Below, piece by piece: positions 45,382 to 49,900 of a DNA stretch of 64,000 nucleotides. Numbering within the stretch: the first letter of the stretch is position 1; each line of letters opens with the position of its first letter. Source of the DNA: Nitrososphaerota archaeon (lineage in GTDB: Archaea > Thermoproteota > Nitrososphaeria > Nitrososphaerales > Gagatemarchaeaceae); contig JAPCJO010000002.1 of the NCBI GenBank assembly GCA_027886905.1, positions 21,859 to 85,858 of the forward strand, read 5' to 3'. The notes under the pieces were generated by a model that saw only the letters and a list, made by a program, of their open reading frames with translations, made no database searches and had not been told where the DNA came from. A program made the translations under genes and the position numbers.

Positions 45382-46014
45382 ATGAAGAAAGGACTGCTCG
45401 CGTTCGTGGTCCAGAAGCACAAGGCGACGTCCCTCCACTACGACTTTCGGCTCGAGGTAGGAGGGGTGATGCCCTCCTGGTCGGTCCCGAAGGGGCCGAC
45501 GCTCGACAGCGGCTTCAGGCGCCTCGCGATGCCGACGTCAGACCACCTGATGGAGTACCGGCACTTCGAGGGCGTGCTCAAGGGGGAGTATGGGGCGGGC
45601 CCGGTCATGATATGGGACGAGGGGACCTACGACCCCGAGGTGGAGGTGAGCAAGGGGGTGCGAAGGGAGGTGGTGGAGAAGAAGGAGGCCGAGCGGGTCG
45701 CCAAGGAGAGCCTCGAGGAAGGGAACCTGAAGTTCAGGCTCTACGGCAAGAAGCTGAAGGGCTCGTTCGCGCTCGTCCGGACGGCCGGCTGGGGCGGGAA
45801 GGAGTCGTGGTTGCTGATCAAGCATCGCGATGAGTACTCCCAGCCTGGGTACGACGCGAACGACTACGACTACTCCGCGGTCAGCAAGAAGACCCTCGCC
45901 CAGATCGCCGGCCAGGAAGAGCTGGTCGGCCCGTCAAGCGGGCTTGAAGCGGAAGAGAAGGAGGGAGTTGCTGATAACCGTCGCCGAACTCACGGCCATC
46001 GCACCGGCGGCTAG
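45382..46014 (+). CDS. Stand-alone LigD-type 3'-phosphoesterase domain protein
   Basis: FVVQKHKATSLHYDFRLEVGGVMPSWSVPKGPTLD...RHFEGVLKGEYGAGPVMIWDEGTY...WLLIKHRDE. Confidence 0.92.
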   Translation: MKKGLLAFVVQKHKATSLHYDFRLEVGGVMPSWSVPKGPTLDSGFRRLAMPTSDHLMEYRHFEGVLKGEYGAGPVMIWDEGTYDPEVEVSKGVRREVVEKKEAERVAKESLEEGNLKFRLYGKKLKGSFALVRTAGWGGKESWLLIKHRDEYSQPGYDANDYDYSAVSKKTLAQIAGQEELVGPSSGLEAEEKEGVADNRRRTHGHRTGG

Positions 46015-48027
46015 GAAAGGCAGGACTTCGTAGACCTGGGCGCCGAGGAAGGGCACCAGCGCCCCGGCTGCTACCGGGATCAAGACCACGTTGTATGCGA
46101 ACGCCCAGAACAGGTTCTGCCTTATCTTTGAGAGAGTCCTCCGGCTGAGCTTGATCGCAGTCGGGACGTTCTGAAGGTCGTCTTTGATCAGCACTATCCC
46201 GCCCGCCTCCTTCGCAATGTCCGTCCCGCTCCCGATGGCTATGCCGACGTCCGCGGCGGCCAGCGCGGGCGCGTCGTTGATGCCGTCACCCACCATCGCG
46301 ACGACCCTCCCCTCCTTCTGCATGGACGCTATCGCTTCCTCCTTCTGCTGTGGGAGGACCTCGGCGACGAACTTTTCGATGCCCAGCCCGTGGGCTATCG
46401 CCGCGGCCGTCCGCGAGTTGTCTCCCGTGAGCATCACGACCTCAATCCCCATCGCTTTGAGCGCGTCCACAGCCGGCTTCGCGGAGGGCTTCACCGTGTC
46501 GGCTACAGCCAAGACTCCGGCGGCCTTACCGTCGACGACCACGACCATCCCCGTCTTTCCCTCGTCCTCGAGCTCGGCGAGACGCGCCTCCACCCCCGAC
46601 AGGTCGGCTCCGCCCTCCGCGACCAAGCGCCTGTTCCCCAGAAGCACCACCCTCCCGTCGACGGCGGCCTTCACGCCCTCCCCAGGGATGGCCTGAAAGT
46701 CGCGCGGCTCGGAGAGGGAGACGGAGCGGCGCCTCGCCTCGTTGACGACCGCCTGACCCAGAGGGTGTTCCGAGCCCTTCTCCACGGAAGCTGCCAGGTG
46801 CAGGAGCTCCTCCTGACCGAGCCCACCCAAGGGCACGACGTCTGTGAGGGACGGCCTCCCTCTAGTGAGGGTGCCCGTCTTGTCGAAGACCACCGTGTCC
46901 ACCTTCCCCGCCCGTTCGAGGTACTCCCCGCCCTTGATCAGGACGCCGCACTGAGCCCCCCTGCTCGTCCCCACGAGGAGCGCCGCGGGGGTGGCCACCC
47001 CCAGAGCGCAGGGGCAGGCTATCACGACGACCGAGACGAAGGCGAGCACGGAGAAGTCGAGCCCGATGTGGCCGATGTAGAACCAGGACAGGCCTGCCAC
47101 CGCCGCGGCGGCGATGACGACCGGGACGAAGTAGGACGCGATCCTGTCCGCGAGGCGCTGGATCGGCGCCCTTCCCGCCTGCGCCTCCTCGACCAGCTTG
47201 ACTATCTGGAAGAGGGCCGTGTCCTGCCCCACCTTGTCGGCCCTCAGCTTCAGGAGGCCCGACTTGTTGATGGTCGCCCCTATCACCTCGTCGCCGGGCC
47301 CCTTTTCCACCGGAATGCTCTCGCCCGTTATCATGGACTCGTCTACGGCGGACGCGCCCTCGACCACCACCGCGTCGACGGGTATCCTCTCACCCGGCTT
47401 GACGAGGAGCGCGTCCCCGACGCCGACCTGCTCCACCGGAACCTCTGCCTCCGAGCCGTCAGGGGCGAGGCGGCGAGCCATCGTGGGTTGGAGGTCCACC
47501 AGCTTCCTCACCGCGGCCGAGGCCCTGCTCTTCGTCGCGTGCTCAAGAAAGCGGCCCGCCAGCACCAGGGTGATTATCACGGCCGCGGTGTCGAAGTAGA
47601 CCCCGGACGACGGCAAGGCGCCGGGGGCGAGGGTGACCGCCGAGGAGTAGCCCCACGCGGCAGACGTCCCGAGCGCGATGAGGGCGTCCATGTTCCCCAT
47701 CCTGCTCCTGATGCCGTCGTACGTCCCCCGGTAGAACCTCCACCCGATGACGAACTGGATGGGAGTTTCGAGCGCGAAGAGCAGGTAGTTGGAGGTCCGC
47801 GCGGGGAGTGTCCCCGAGTAGGTGATGAGGAGGATCGGCACGGCCAGGAGCGCGGCGGCCGCGAGCTCCACCTTGAGCTTCCTGAGCTCCTTCTCGGGCG
47901 CGAGGAACTCGCGCATGCAACTCTCGCTGCAGAAGTAGTAGTTGACTCCCCGAACCTGGGCCTTCAGCTCTGCTGTGGACTCGTCGACATACATTCCGCA
48001 CACTGGATCGGACCCTATGTCTCTCAC
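45934..48027 (-). CDS. copA: Cu+-type P1B ATPase with N-terminal YHS domain
   Basis: SDPVCGMYVDES...YYFCSESCMREF (YHS); ACPCALGVATPAALLVGTSRGAQ; FDKTGTLTRG; MVGDGINDAPALAAADVGIAIGSGTD; GTG start at 48027. Confidence 0.94.
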   Translation of the reverse strand: MRDIGSDPVCGMYVDESTAELKAQVRGVNYYFCSESCMREFLAPEKELRKLKVELAAAALLAVPILLITYSGTLPARTSNYLLFALETPIQFVIGWRFYRGTYDGIRSRMGNMDALIALGTSAAWGYSSAVTLAPGALPSSGVYFDTAAVIITLVLAGRFLEHATKSRASAAVRKLVDLQPTMARRLAPDGSEAEVPVEQVGVGDALLVKPGERIPVDAVVVEGASAVDESMITGESIPVEKGPGDEVIGATINKSGLLKLRADKVGQDTALFQIVKLVEEAQAGRAPIQRLADRIASYFVPVVIAAAAVAGLSWFYIGHIGLDFSVLAFVSVVVIACPCALGVATPAALLVGTSRGAQCGVLIKGGEYLERAGKVDTVVFDKTGTLTRGRPSLTDVVPLGGLGQEELLHLAASVEKGSEHPLGQAVVNEARRRSVSLSEPRDFQAIPGEGVKAAVDGRVVLLGNRRLVAEGGADLSGVEARLAELEDEGKTGMVVVVDGKAAGVLAVADTVKPSAKPAVDALKAMGIEVVMLTGDNSRTAAAIAHGLGIEKFVAEVLPQQKEEAIASMQKEGRVVAMVGDGINDAPALAAADVGIAIGSGTDIAKEAGGIVLIKDDLQNVPTAIKLSRRTLSKIRQNLFWAFAYNVVLIPVAAGALVPFLGAQVYEVLPFLAAGAMAVSSATVISNSLLLFRFKPA

Positions 48028-48977
48028 AGGCCCATTAGGTCCTTAGGATGCGGACTGCCGTGAACACGTATGTATTCTGCTCTCGCTTGTTCCCGATATT
48101 GAATGACGTCGGCATCAATTCCTCTCACAATAGATAACCATTCGTCGCTCACTGCGTTCCACCGCTGCCCTCGAGCTTTTTTCACAAAGGCGCTCTTCGT
48201 TATCTTCTCGGCGTGTTTTAGGTTAAGTCTGTCAAGGATGTAGTTCGCTCTCTTGCCATAAAAAACTAACCTCCAAGCTCGTTCATGGAAGTAGAGTCTT
48301 CCCCCAAAAACTCGTCTCAAGGAGGTCAACAATCGATATTTGTTTATCGTGATGTAGAGGACTGAATCCGCCATTCTGCCGTTTTTGTACAATCGTACTC
48401 CTCCTTCAGCATCCACAAGACCGGCAAGATACTCAAGGAGCAGGGGATTTTCTATTGCTCGCGGGACGTTCGGTGGAAGACCAGGCCCTTTCTGGAGCGC
48501 CTCTTCGAAGCTCGATTCCAAATATGTCGCAAACTGAAATCTGTAATACAAGTGTAAGTGATCGAATGAAGCTACACGGTAAATGTTGCCGTAGTTCTGA
48601 AATAATCTTTGATAAAGTACTTCCATCGACGGATGGGTCGTCGTCGTTGAGACTTCTATCAGGCGACCGCTTTTCCGGATGTGGCAGTCCTCAATGAATC
48701 CGCACAGATAAGCCCCTTCCAAAGCGTCGCCAGAGAAGGGGTACTTTGGATATTTTGTCGAGGCTTTGATGGAGGCTTCTCTCCCGTCCCTCAACTCGAC
48801 TTTCAACATCATAAGATGACGACGGACCGTAGACGAACTAACTCCAAATTTTCTCGCAATGGCTTCCATTGATGAGCCGCTTTCATACACCCTGACCCAT
48901 TCTCTGTCGCGGCTAGATTCCATGAATATCGATGCAGAATTCTCATTTAAGCATACACAGACGGGGTCTGCCGCCAT
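48024..48977 (-). mobile_element. LAGLIDADG homing endonuclease-like ORF with HTH segment, between copA promoter and copA
   Basis: AYLCGFIEDCHIRK (degenerate) and EYLAGLVDAEGGVRL (LAGLIDADG); HTH AIARKFGVSSSTVRRHLMM; starts MAADPVC; visibly AT-richer than flanks. Confidence 0.85.
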
Positions 48978-49014
48978 TATAGAATCGGCGAGATGGACGG
49001 TCTTAAACCCCTGG

Positions 49015-49030
49015 CTTTACATACGTAAAG
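49015..49030. promoter_or_regulatory. 16-bp palindromic candidate operator, copA side
   Basis: CTTTACATACGTAAAG (minus strand CTTTACGTATGTAAAG). Confidence 0.75.
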
Positions 49031-49655
49031 CTGTTTTCTCGCCGTGCTTAATGCGGGCGAGCCTCGGTCCGAATTTCTCCAGGTAGGCGTTCCTGCAAGT
49101 CTTGCAGCAGAAGTAATAGCGCGAAGAGCGGGTGGTCAGCGTGTAGGGCCTGGCTCTGGCGACCTCCTCATGACAAAAGTCGCACTTGAGGTTCATGATT
49201 AGCGCCGAAGGGGAAAGCGGGGCTGGCTCTTCCTTTACGACTTTGGTTATAATCTGGCTCGATGCGACGCTCACTCCAGGCCGCGCCAACACGCGCCGGC
49301 TGAGAAATTTCTGGAGACCTGCTACGTCGCTCAGGGCGACCTTCAGGGTCATCCCCTGCCCCGTCGTGACGTAGACATTCTCCACCTCCGGCAGCTTCGA
49401 AAGGTCACTCCCGAGCTTCTCGGCCGACGAAGAGTTCACTTTCAATGATATGACGGCGAAGACCCCGCGGCCGACCGAGTCCGGGGAAAGAACCGGCACG
49501 AACTTCCTAATCATCCCGGACTTCTTCATTCGGTCAAACCTCGCGGAGACCGTCGGCGTAGTGAGCGAGGTCCTCTTCGCGATCTGCCTGAGCGATGCTC
49601 TTCCGTCGTCGATGAGAGCTCCGAGAATCCTGGCGTCGATCTCGTCGGGTTTCAA
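49017..49655 (-). CDS. Lrp/AsnC-type regulator with C-terminal TRASH-like metal-binding domain (CopT-like)
   Basis: IDARILGALIDDGRASLRQIAKRTSLTTPTVSARFDRMKKSGMI; CDFCHEEV...YYFCCKTCRNAYLEKF. Confidence 0.9.
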   Translation of the reverse strand: MKPDEIDARILGALIDDGRASLRQIAKRTSLTTPTVSARFDRMKKSGMIRKFVPVLSPDSVGRGVFAVISLKVNSSSAEKLGSDLSKLPEVENVYVTTGQGMTLKVALSDVAGLQKFLSRRVLARPGVSVASSQIITKVVKEEPAPLSPSALIMNLKCDFCHEEVARARPYTLTTRSSRYYFCCKTCRNAYLEKFGPRLARIKHGEKTALRM

Positions 49656-49687: not shown

Positions 49688-49703
49688 CTTTACGTTTGTA
49701 AAG
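49688..49703. promoter_or_regulatory. 16-bp palindromic candidate operator, regulator/YHS divergent spacer
   Basis: CTTTACGTTTGTAAAG; 15/16 identical to the minus strand of the 49015-49030 site. Confidence 0.75.
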
Positions 49704-49750: not shown

Positions 49751-49900
49751 TTGGTAAAGGATCCCGTGTGTGGAATGACGGTGGACGAGAAGACGACGAA
49801 GCTCAGGTCGGCGCACGACGGGAACGTGTTCTACTTCTGCTCCGCAGCCTGCAAGGCCAGCTTCGACAAGGACCCCCACAGGTTCGGTCACGCGAAGTAG
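49751..49900 (+). CDS. Small YHS-domain protein (CopM-like candidate metallochaperone)
   Basis: Manual translation LVKDPVCGMTVDEKTTKLRSAHDGNVFYFCSAACKASFDKDPHRFGHAK*, TTG start; absent from ORF track. Confidence 0.82.
   Translation: MVKDPVCGMTVDEKTTKLRSAHDGNVFYFCSAACKASFDKDPHRFGHAK

Follow-up and report, generated by a model that had tools for sequence, protein, structure and literature searches.

A LAGLIDADG endonuclease gene apparently inserted behind the promoter and first codons of copA in an archaeal genome

The window, i.e., the whole 64,000-nucleotide stretch of Nitrososphaerota DNA analyzed here, derives from a MAG. It carries copA, and directly 5' of it in the same direction an ORF for a LAGLIDADG protein. 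Farther upstream lie the gene of a regulator with a TRASH domain and, on the opposite strand, the gene of a small YHS protein. The positions of these genes and of their control elements are listed in Table 1.

Table 1. Features of the copA-endonuclease locus and loci of related endonuclease genes
Feature	Position	Strand	Remarks
copA, YHS and P-type (CPx) ATPase	45934..48027	-	Pfam E1-E2_ATPase, Hydrolase, YHS
Probable substitute copA 5' end GTGAGAGACATAGGGTCCGATCCAGTGTGCGGAATG	47992..48027	-	GTG overlaps endonuclease TGA; aligned with G012 right junction
Endonuclease ORF	48024..48977	-	317 aa; presumed captured copA start, linker, HTH and LAGLIDADG domain
Endonuclease proper, from Met19	48027..48923	-	Alignment with G012 homologue starts at M19
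LAGLIDADG helix 2, residues 178-191	48405..48446	-	LAGLVDAE, E191 last
LAGLIDADG helix 1, residues 85-97	48687..48725	-	D97 last; invariant in 26 sequences
Helix-turn-helix region, residues 22-57	48807..48914	-	
Presumed insert left end, linker TATGCTTAAATGAGAATTC... before Met19	48924..48955	-	Leader resembles G012 GTTAAATG...ATGGA
Presumed captured copA start ATGGCGGCAGACCCCGTCTGTG (MAADPVC)	48956..48977	-	Up to 15/19 nt after ATG match relatives; 68% GC
TATA-like box TTTAAGAC	49000..49007	-	22 nt before ATG
Candidate copper operator, perfect palindrome CTTTACATACGTAAAG	49015..49030	.	Just upstream of TATA-like box and ATG
Lrp/AsnC regulator with TRASH domain (CopR-like)	49017..49655	-	Compare PMC7830388
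Second palindrome copy	49688..49703	.	Between Lrp-TRASH regulator and small YHS gene
Small YHS protein gene	49751..49900	+	Probably same regulon
Family loci tail to tail with host gene	L003-L006, L008-L012, L014-L018, L020, L022, L023, L028, L029, L078-L081		

The ORF encodes MAADPVC, an 11-residue linker and, from Met19 onward, a helix-turn-helix (HTH) region followed by a two-motif LAGLIDADG domain. Judged by its sequence and predicted structure, the product is an HTH-LAGLIDADG endonuclease. The AlphaFold2 model had an overall pLDDT of 91, with values below 50 at residues 1-4 and 6-19; residues 1-19 are read as disordered. The top Foldseek match in the PDB was the archaeal homing endonuclease I-Tsp061I, and almost all of the 43 PDB structural matches at E<=0.001 were LAGLIDADG enzymes; WhiA, a transcription factor with the LAGLIDADG fold, was also among them. 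A sequence search of the PDB gave only weak matches to the NarL HTH, and the Pfam LAGLIDADG_3 score was 18.8 bits, under the cut-off of 22.5, which the relatives exceed. Both LAGLIDADG helices are present with their terminal acids, D97 and E191, at the ends of the helix pair, although motif 1 is one residue short. This shortening is common to the copA-linked clade (48687-48725 in the window and locus L002), which has GFIEDC with the acid kept, versus GFxxGDx in all relatives. An ungapped reading, in which the first catalytic acid is lost from LCGFIEDC, was rejected, since the family alignment has D97 invariant and the motif one residue shorter. Activity of the window enzyme is uncertain given this shortened motif.

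An earlier note on this DNA had observed that the ORF begins like the YHS motif of copA and had predicted uninterrupted copA starts in close relatives. Both points were borne out. Intact starts of the form MAxDP(V/I)CGM occur in relatives of the same genus (ATG GCG AAG GAC CCC ATC TGC GGA ATG in G003; ATG GCT TCG GAC CCA ATC TGC GGA ATG in G001), at the same distance from the operator and TATA-like box as the endonuclease start, in agreement with the proposed insertion after DPVC that took the promoter and first codons of copA. Of the 19 nt that follow the ATG, up to 15 are identical between the 22-nt start and intact relatives; no other ATG among the 1,303 in the window scores as high (runner-up, 13), and 12 of 200,000 shuffles attained this score. 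Past TGTG, similarity to intact copA is 4-6/20 on the endonuclease side and 14-17/20 on the copA side. The GC content is 68% in the first 22 nt, 47% in the remaining ORF and 67% in copA, with the break exactly after the presumed captured codons. Homology of the endonuclease to its nearest relative, that of G012, begins only at Met19, and the G012 copy is without DPVC; DPVC is thus foreign to the endonuclease, and copA codons would therefore have been fused on at insertion. Judged from these comparisons, the DPVC match exceeds what chance would give, and the first 22 nt of the ORF are the old copA start, retained as an MAADPVC remnant in frame with the endonuclease.

At the other end, the endonuclease stop (TGA, 48026-48024) overlaps the GTG of copA (48027) as GTGA, and copA restarts as V-R-D-I-G-S-D-P-V-C-G-M (VRDIGSDPVCGM), both as described earlier. 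The two DPVC copies, GACCCCGTCTGT and GATCCAGTGTGC, have different third bases in all four codons, so a simple recent duplication of the upstream copy does not account for the downstream one. The right junctions of the window and G012 align through the new start at 19/27 nt (hand count), with CCAGTGTGCGGAATG identical. Because of this similarity, and because its codons are unlike the left remnant, the substitute copA 5' end probably arrived with the element. The copA sequence is typical of its genus from roughly YHS codon 6 onward; no long co-conversion tract was found in copA beyond this point, and the presumed donor tract extends at most ~18 nt past the new start. The earlier proposal that the element supplied a replacement 5' end holds as far as the resemblance to G012 goes, but the length of the tract does not suffice to place it, and sequence comparison gives no more than moderate support to a foreign origin of this short segment.

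In five other copA genes (L034, L046, L048, L049, and L052), no in-frame ATG, GTG or TTG was seen between the upstream stop and DPVCGM, and a GAGGTG-type ribosome site precedes the apparent start, ATA or ATC; the sole in-frame TTG of L048 lies near the promoter. The window copA has an ATA at the position matching these ATA/ATC starts.

The control region upstream of the endonuclease resembles that of intact copA genes. An equal TTTAAGAC box precedes intact copA with a gap of 21-23 nt in G001, G003, and G007, and similar palindromes precede it in G001, G003, and G004. The candidate operator that the earlier note placed just upstream of the endonuclease start is recovered as the perfect palindrome CTTTACATACGTAAAG, which has two matches in the window versus 0.02 expected by chance. 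CopR of Pyrococcus furiosus, an Lrp-TRASH protein, binds a semi-palindrome that immediately precedes the BRE/TATA in copper genes (PMC7830388), and because of this precedent copper control of the endonuclease-copA promoter is a reasonable expectation. The window likewise has an Lrp/AsnC-TRASH regulator beside copA and a palindrome in the corresponding place; however, the operator sequences differ (CTTTACNNNNGTAAAG versus TTNNCAWWWTGNNAA), and in the window the endonuclease is the first gene behind the promoter. The TATA-to-ATG distance, read against archaeal promoter spacing, suggests a leaderless endonuclease-copA message, which would explain why in-frame joining of the insert to the ATG of copA was needed for translation. 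A sequence close to the presumed endonuclease target, GATCCCGTGTGTGGAATG, stands uninterrupted at 49760-49777 in the small YHS gene.

A second occurrence was found in another genus, in G012 (JACPTA010000133, "Thaumarchaeota archaeon NC_groundwater_720"). Its endonuclease, 55% identical to that of the window, lies directly 5' of copA with the identical GTGA stop/start overlap, and its N-terminus is MQTLVQLPMDD. The earlier note had named as a counter-case an endonuclease located elsewhere and without DPVC; DPVC is indeed missing in G012, but the location is not elsewhere, being again 5' of copA. The G012 promoter ACGAATAGTATAAATACTTT has a divergent putative regulator gene next to it and is shared with G014 and G016, where it drives intact copA. 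The 3' end of the G012 endonuclease (AAAGGTGGAGTGAG-AAGC-ATCGCGAAGGACCC) repeats the native copA leader of G014 and G016 (AGAGGTGGTGTGAG-ATCGCGAAAGACCC). The G012 cassette therefore sits in the copA leader, and that of the window inside copA codon 8. Both stand behind their own lineage's copA promoter and end in a copA start, so the cassette is apparently promoterless and uses whichever promoter drives copA; on the two sequences, it appears to consist of an endonuclease gene without its own promoter, ending in a copA 5' end. Identity between the two endonuclease genes is 65/71/37% by codon position, and the protein is therefore under constraint.

Among the genomes searched, just these two carry the copA-linked clade. 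The search for further members returned one match in a named genome, G012 itself, and none in IMG/VR. Closer endonuclease members were not found in 400 order-level and 400 class-level genomes, and the copA-linked cassette was absent from all other searched genomes of the window's family.

The reading that we favor, with a probability of about 0.78, is that a free-standing, promoterless LAGLIDADG cassette inserted after copA codon 7, took over the ATG and promoter, and supplied a substitute copA 5' end. The insertion point would be GTC TGT G^GA ATG. Joined in frame to the ATG of copA on its left, the endonuclease would be translated behind the copA promoter and the candidate copper operator; on its right, the new 5' end GTGAGA...GATCCAGTGTGCGGAATG would make copA the second, stop-start-overlapped cistron, whose translation would begin at the overlapping GTG or at the ATA nine bases after it. 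Such an arrangement could arise if cleavage by the enzyme fell close to the start of an uninterrupted copA and an endonuclease-bearing copA allele served as repair template. The copA side would be repaired by homology, and the promoter side by joining the cut recipient end ...GTCTGTG to the element, end joining being invoked there because donor and recipient are without shared homology. Cleavage, this homing route, copper induction, and translational coupling are all inferred. The fuller picture of a copper-switched homing element, fused to a probably leaderless copper-regulated copA message with a coupled copA restart and costly to lose, is tentative, and we put it at somewhat under even odds. 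If true, the expression of the element, and through it the element's spread, would be tied to metal stress, and loss would come at a price, since an imprecise deletion would deprive the host of its copper pump.

Three other explanations were considered. If the ORF lay inside a spliced copA intron, of the archaeal bulge-helix-bulge (BHB) or group I type, removal would give MAADPVCGMYVDES; joining TGTG to GAATG would indeed restore the ancestral frame, and LAGLIDADG enzymes such as I-Tsp061I can be encoded by archaeal introns that are spliced (PDB title). In the window, however, no intron was detectable: no Rfam intron family matched in 47800-49200 at E<=1, no BHB with a full central helix occurred at any DPVCGM-restoring junction, and BHB and group I/II introns were rejected as no recognisable intron structure was present at the junctions. 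Moreover, the right side has its own second DPVC and start, and G012 has the identical overlap with copA yet no upstream copA exon, which makes an intron hardly credible. An intein was likewise rejected, the insert ending in TGA with copA in another frame. The earlier view that neither intron nor intein splicing is involved thus agrees with the Rfam search, the BHB scan, and the reading frame.

The ORF might instead be a domesticated regulator of copA, with an HTH and an inactive LAGLIDADG fold as in WhiA, rather than a selfish endonuclease. The HTH domain, the place beside copA conserved in two genera, the constraint seen in the codon-position identities, the appearance of WhiA among the structural matches, and the shortened motif 1 all fit this explanation. 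It is nevertheless unlikely, since D97 and E191 are kept at the paired-helix ends, the clade is patchy and missing from the rest of the searched family, the relatives of the endonuclease adjoin unrelated genes, and the window copy shows the fusion and low GC content expected of a newcomer. Vertical inheritance beside copA from the common ancestor of both genera, with MAADPVC as a chance N-terminal extension, would account for the arrangement common to the two genera and for left leaders that look related (CTTAAATG...ATGGA versus GTTAAATG...ATGGA). However, promoters and regulators differ between the window and G012, the cassette is absent from the other genomes in either neighbourhood, and the 22 nt have native copA codons, copA-like GC content and the native TATA-ATG spacing; we consider this history very unlikely.

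Returning to the insertion of a promoterless cassette, its closest parallels are found in fungal mitochondria and in phage T4. In genes such as atp6 and cox2, fungal mitochondrial mORFs exchange the host C-terminus for an element-borne copy, leaving the native end as a remnant; examples are atp6 of Allomyces macrogynus and atp6, atp9, cox2, and nad3 of Glomus sp. (PMC3630166). The window element is alike in being an intron-less LAGLIDADG ORF (mORFs may also be GIY-YIG) placed in phase within a host gene, with a probable substitute terminus and a native remnant. In contrast, mORFs replace the 3' end of mitochondrial genes. In the window, the replaced part would be the 5' end of a gene on an archaeal chromosome, a regulated promoter would be captured, and the substitute segment is very short. 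Because the N-terminus rather than the C-terminus is replaced, the element is said to work like an mORF and not to be one.

Most seg and mob endonucleases of phage T4 are without a promoter or overlap host genes (PMC2988022). They too are promoterless cassettes on host promoters, and their overlaps with neighbours suggest translational coupling (PMC2988022); the window ORF similarly appears to have no promoter of its own and lies behind that of the host gene. However, the T4 enzymes are GIY-YIG/HNH phage proteins encoded between intact genes, and none described in PMC2988022 takes a host start codon. By analogy, the window element works like an mORF in mirror image, with a T4-like promoterless trait, at the 5' end of an archaeal gene. 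No case of a 5'-end terminus-replacing endonuclease was found in the open-access papers searched. With this element, the range of terminus-replacing endonuclease elements would grow beyond fungal mitochondria to include an archaeal chromosome and, within the gene, the opposite (5') end. It would also provide a natural example of an intron-less selfish gene housed in a useful host gene that survives the insertion, and it connects metal stress with homing in a way that can be tested.

Related HTH-LAGLIDADG ORFs were present in 31 of 101 genomes (the window's own and relatives). The copA pair forms a separate clade with support 1.00, and the other clades are each fixed to one host gene, at the 3' ends of nuoD, a ferredoxin-like (Fer4) gene and the superoxide dismutase gene (sod), and in one case 5' of a tRNA synthetase gene. 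Members of the nuoD, Fer4 and sod clades are arranged tail to tail with the host gene (Table 1), some overlapping its end. Clades fixed to single host-gene ends are expected of site-specific homing. In three genomes (L024-L026), a family member and a Tyr/Trp-tRNA synthetase gene point the same way, the family member standing immediately 5'; a second synthetase-like stretch flanks its other side. A second member in the window genome lies at the nuoD 3' end (L078, G000:C10, about 1240-2453); an apparent frameshift splits it into two open frames that overlap, as would be seen in a homing gene under decay.
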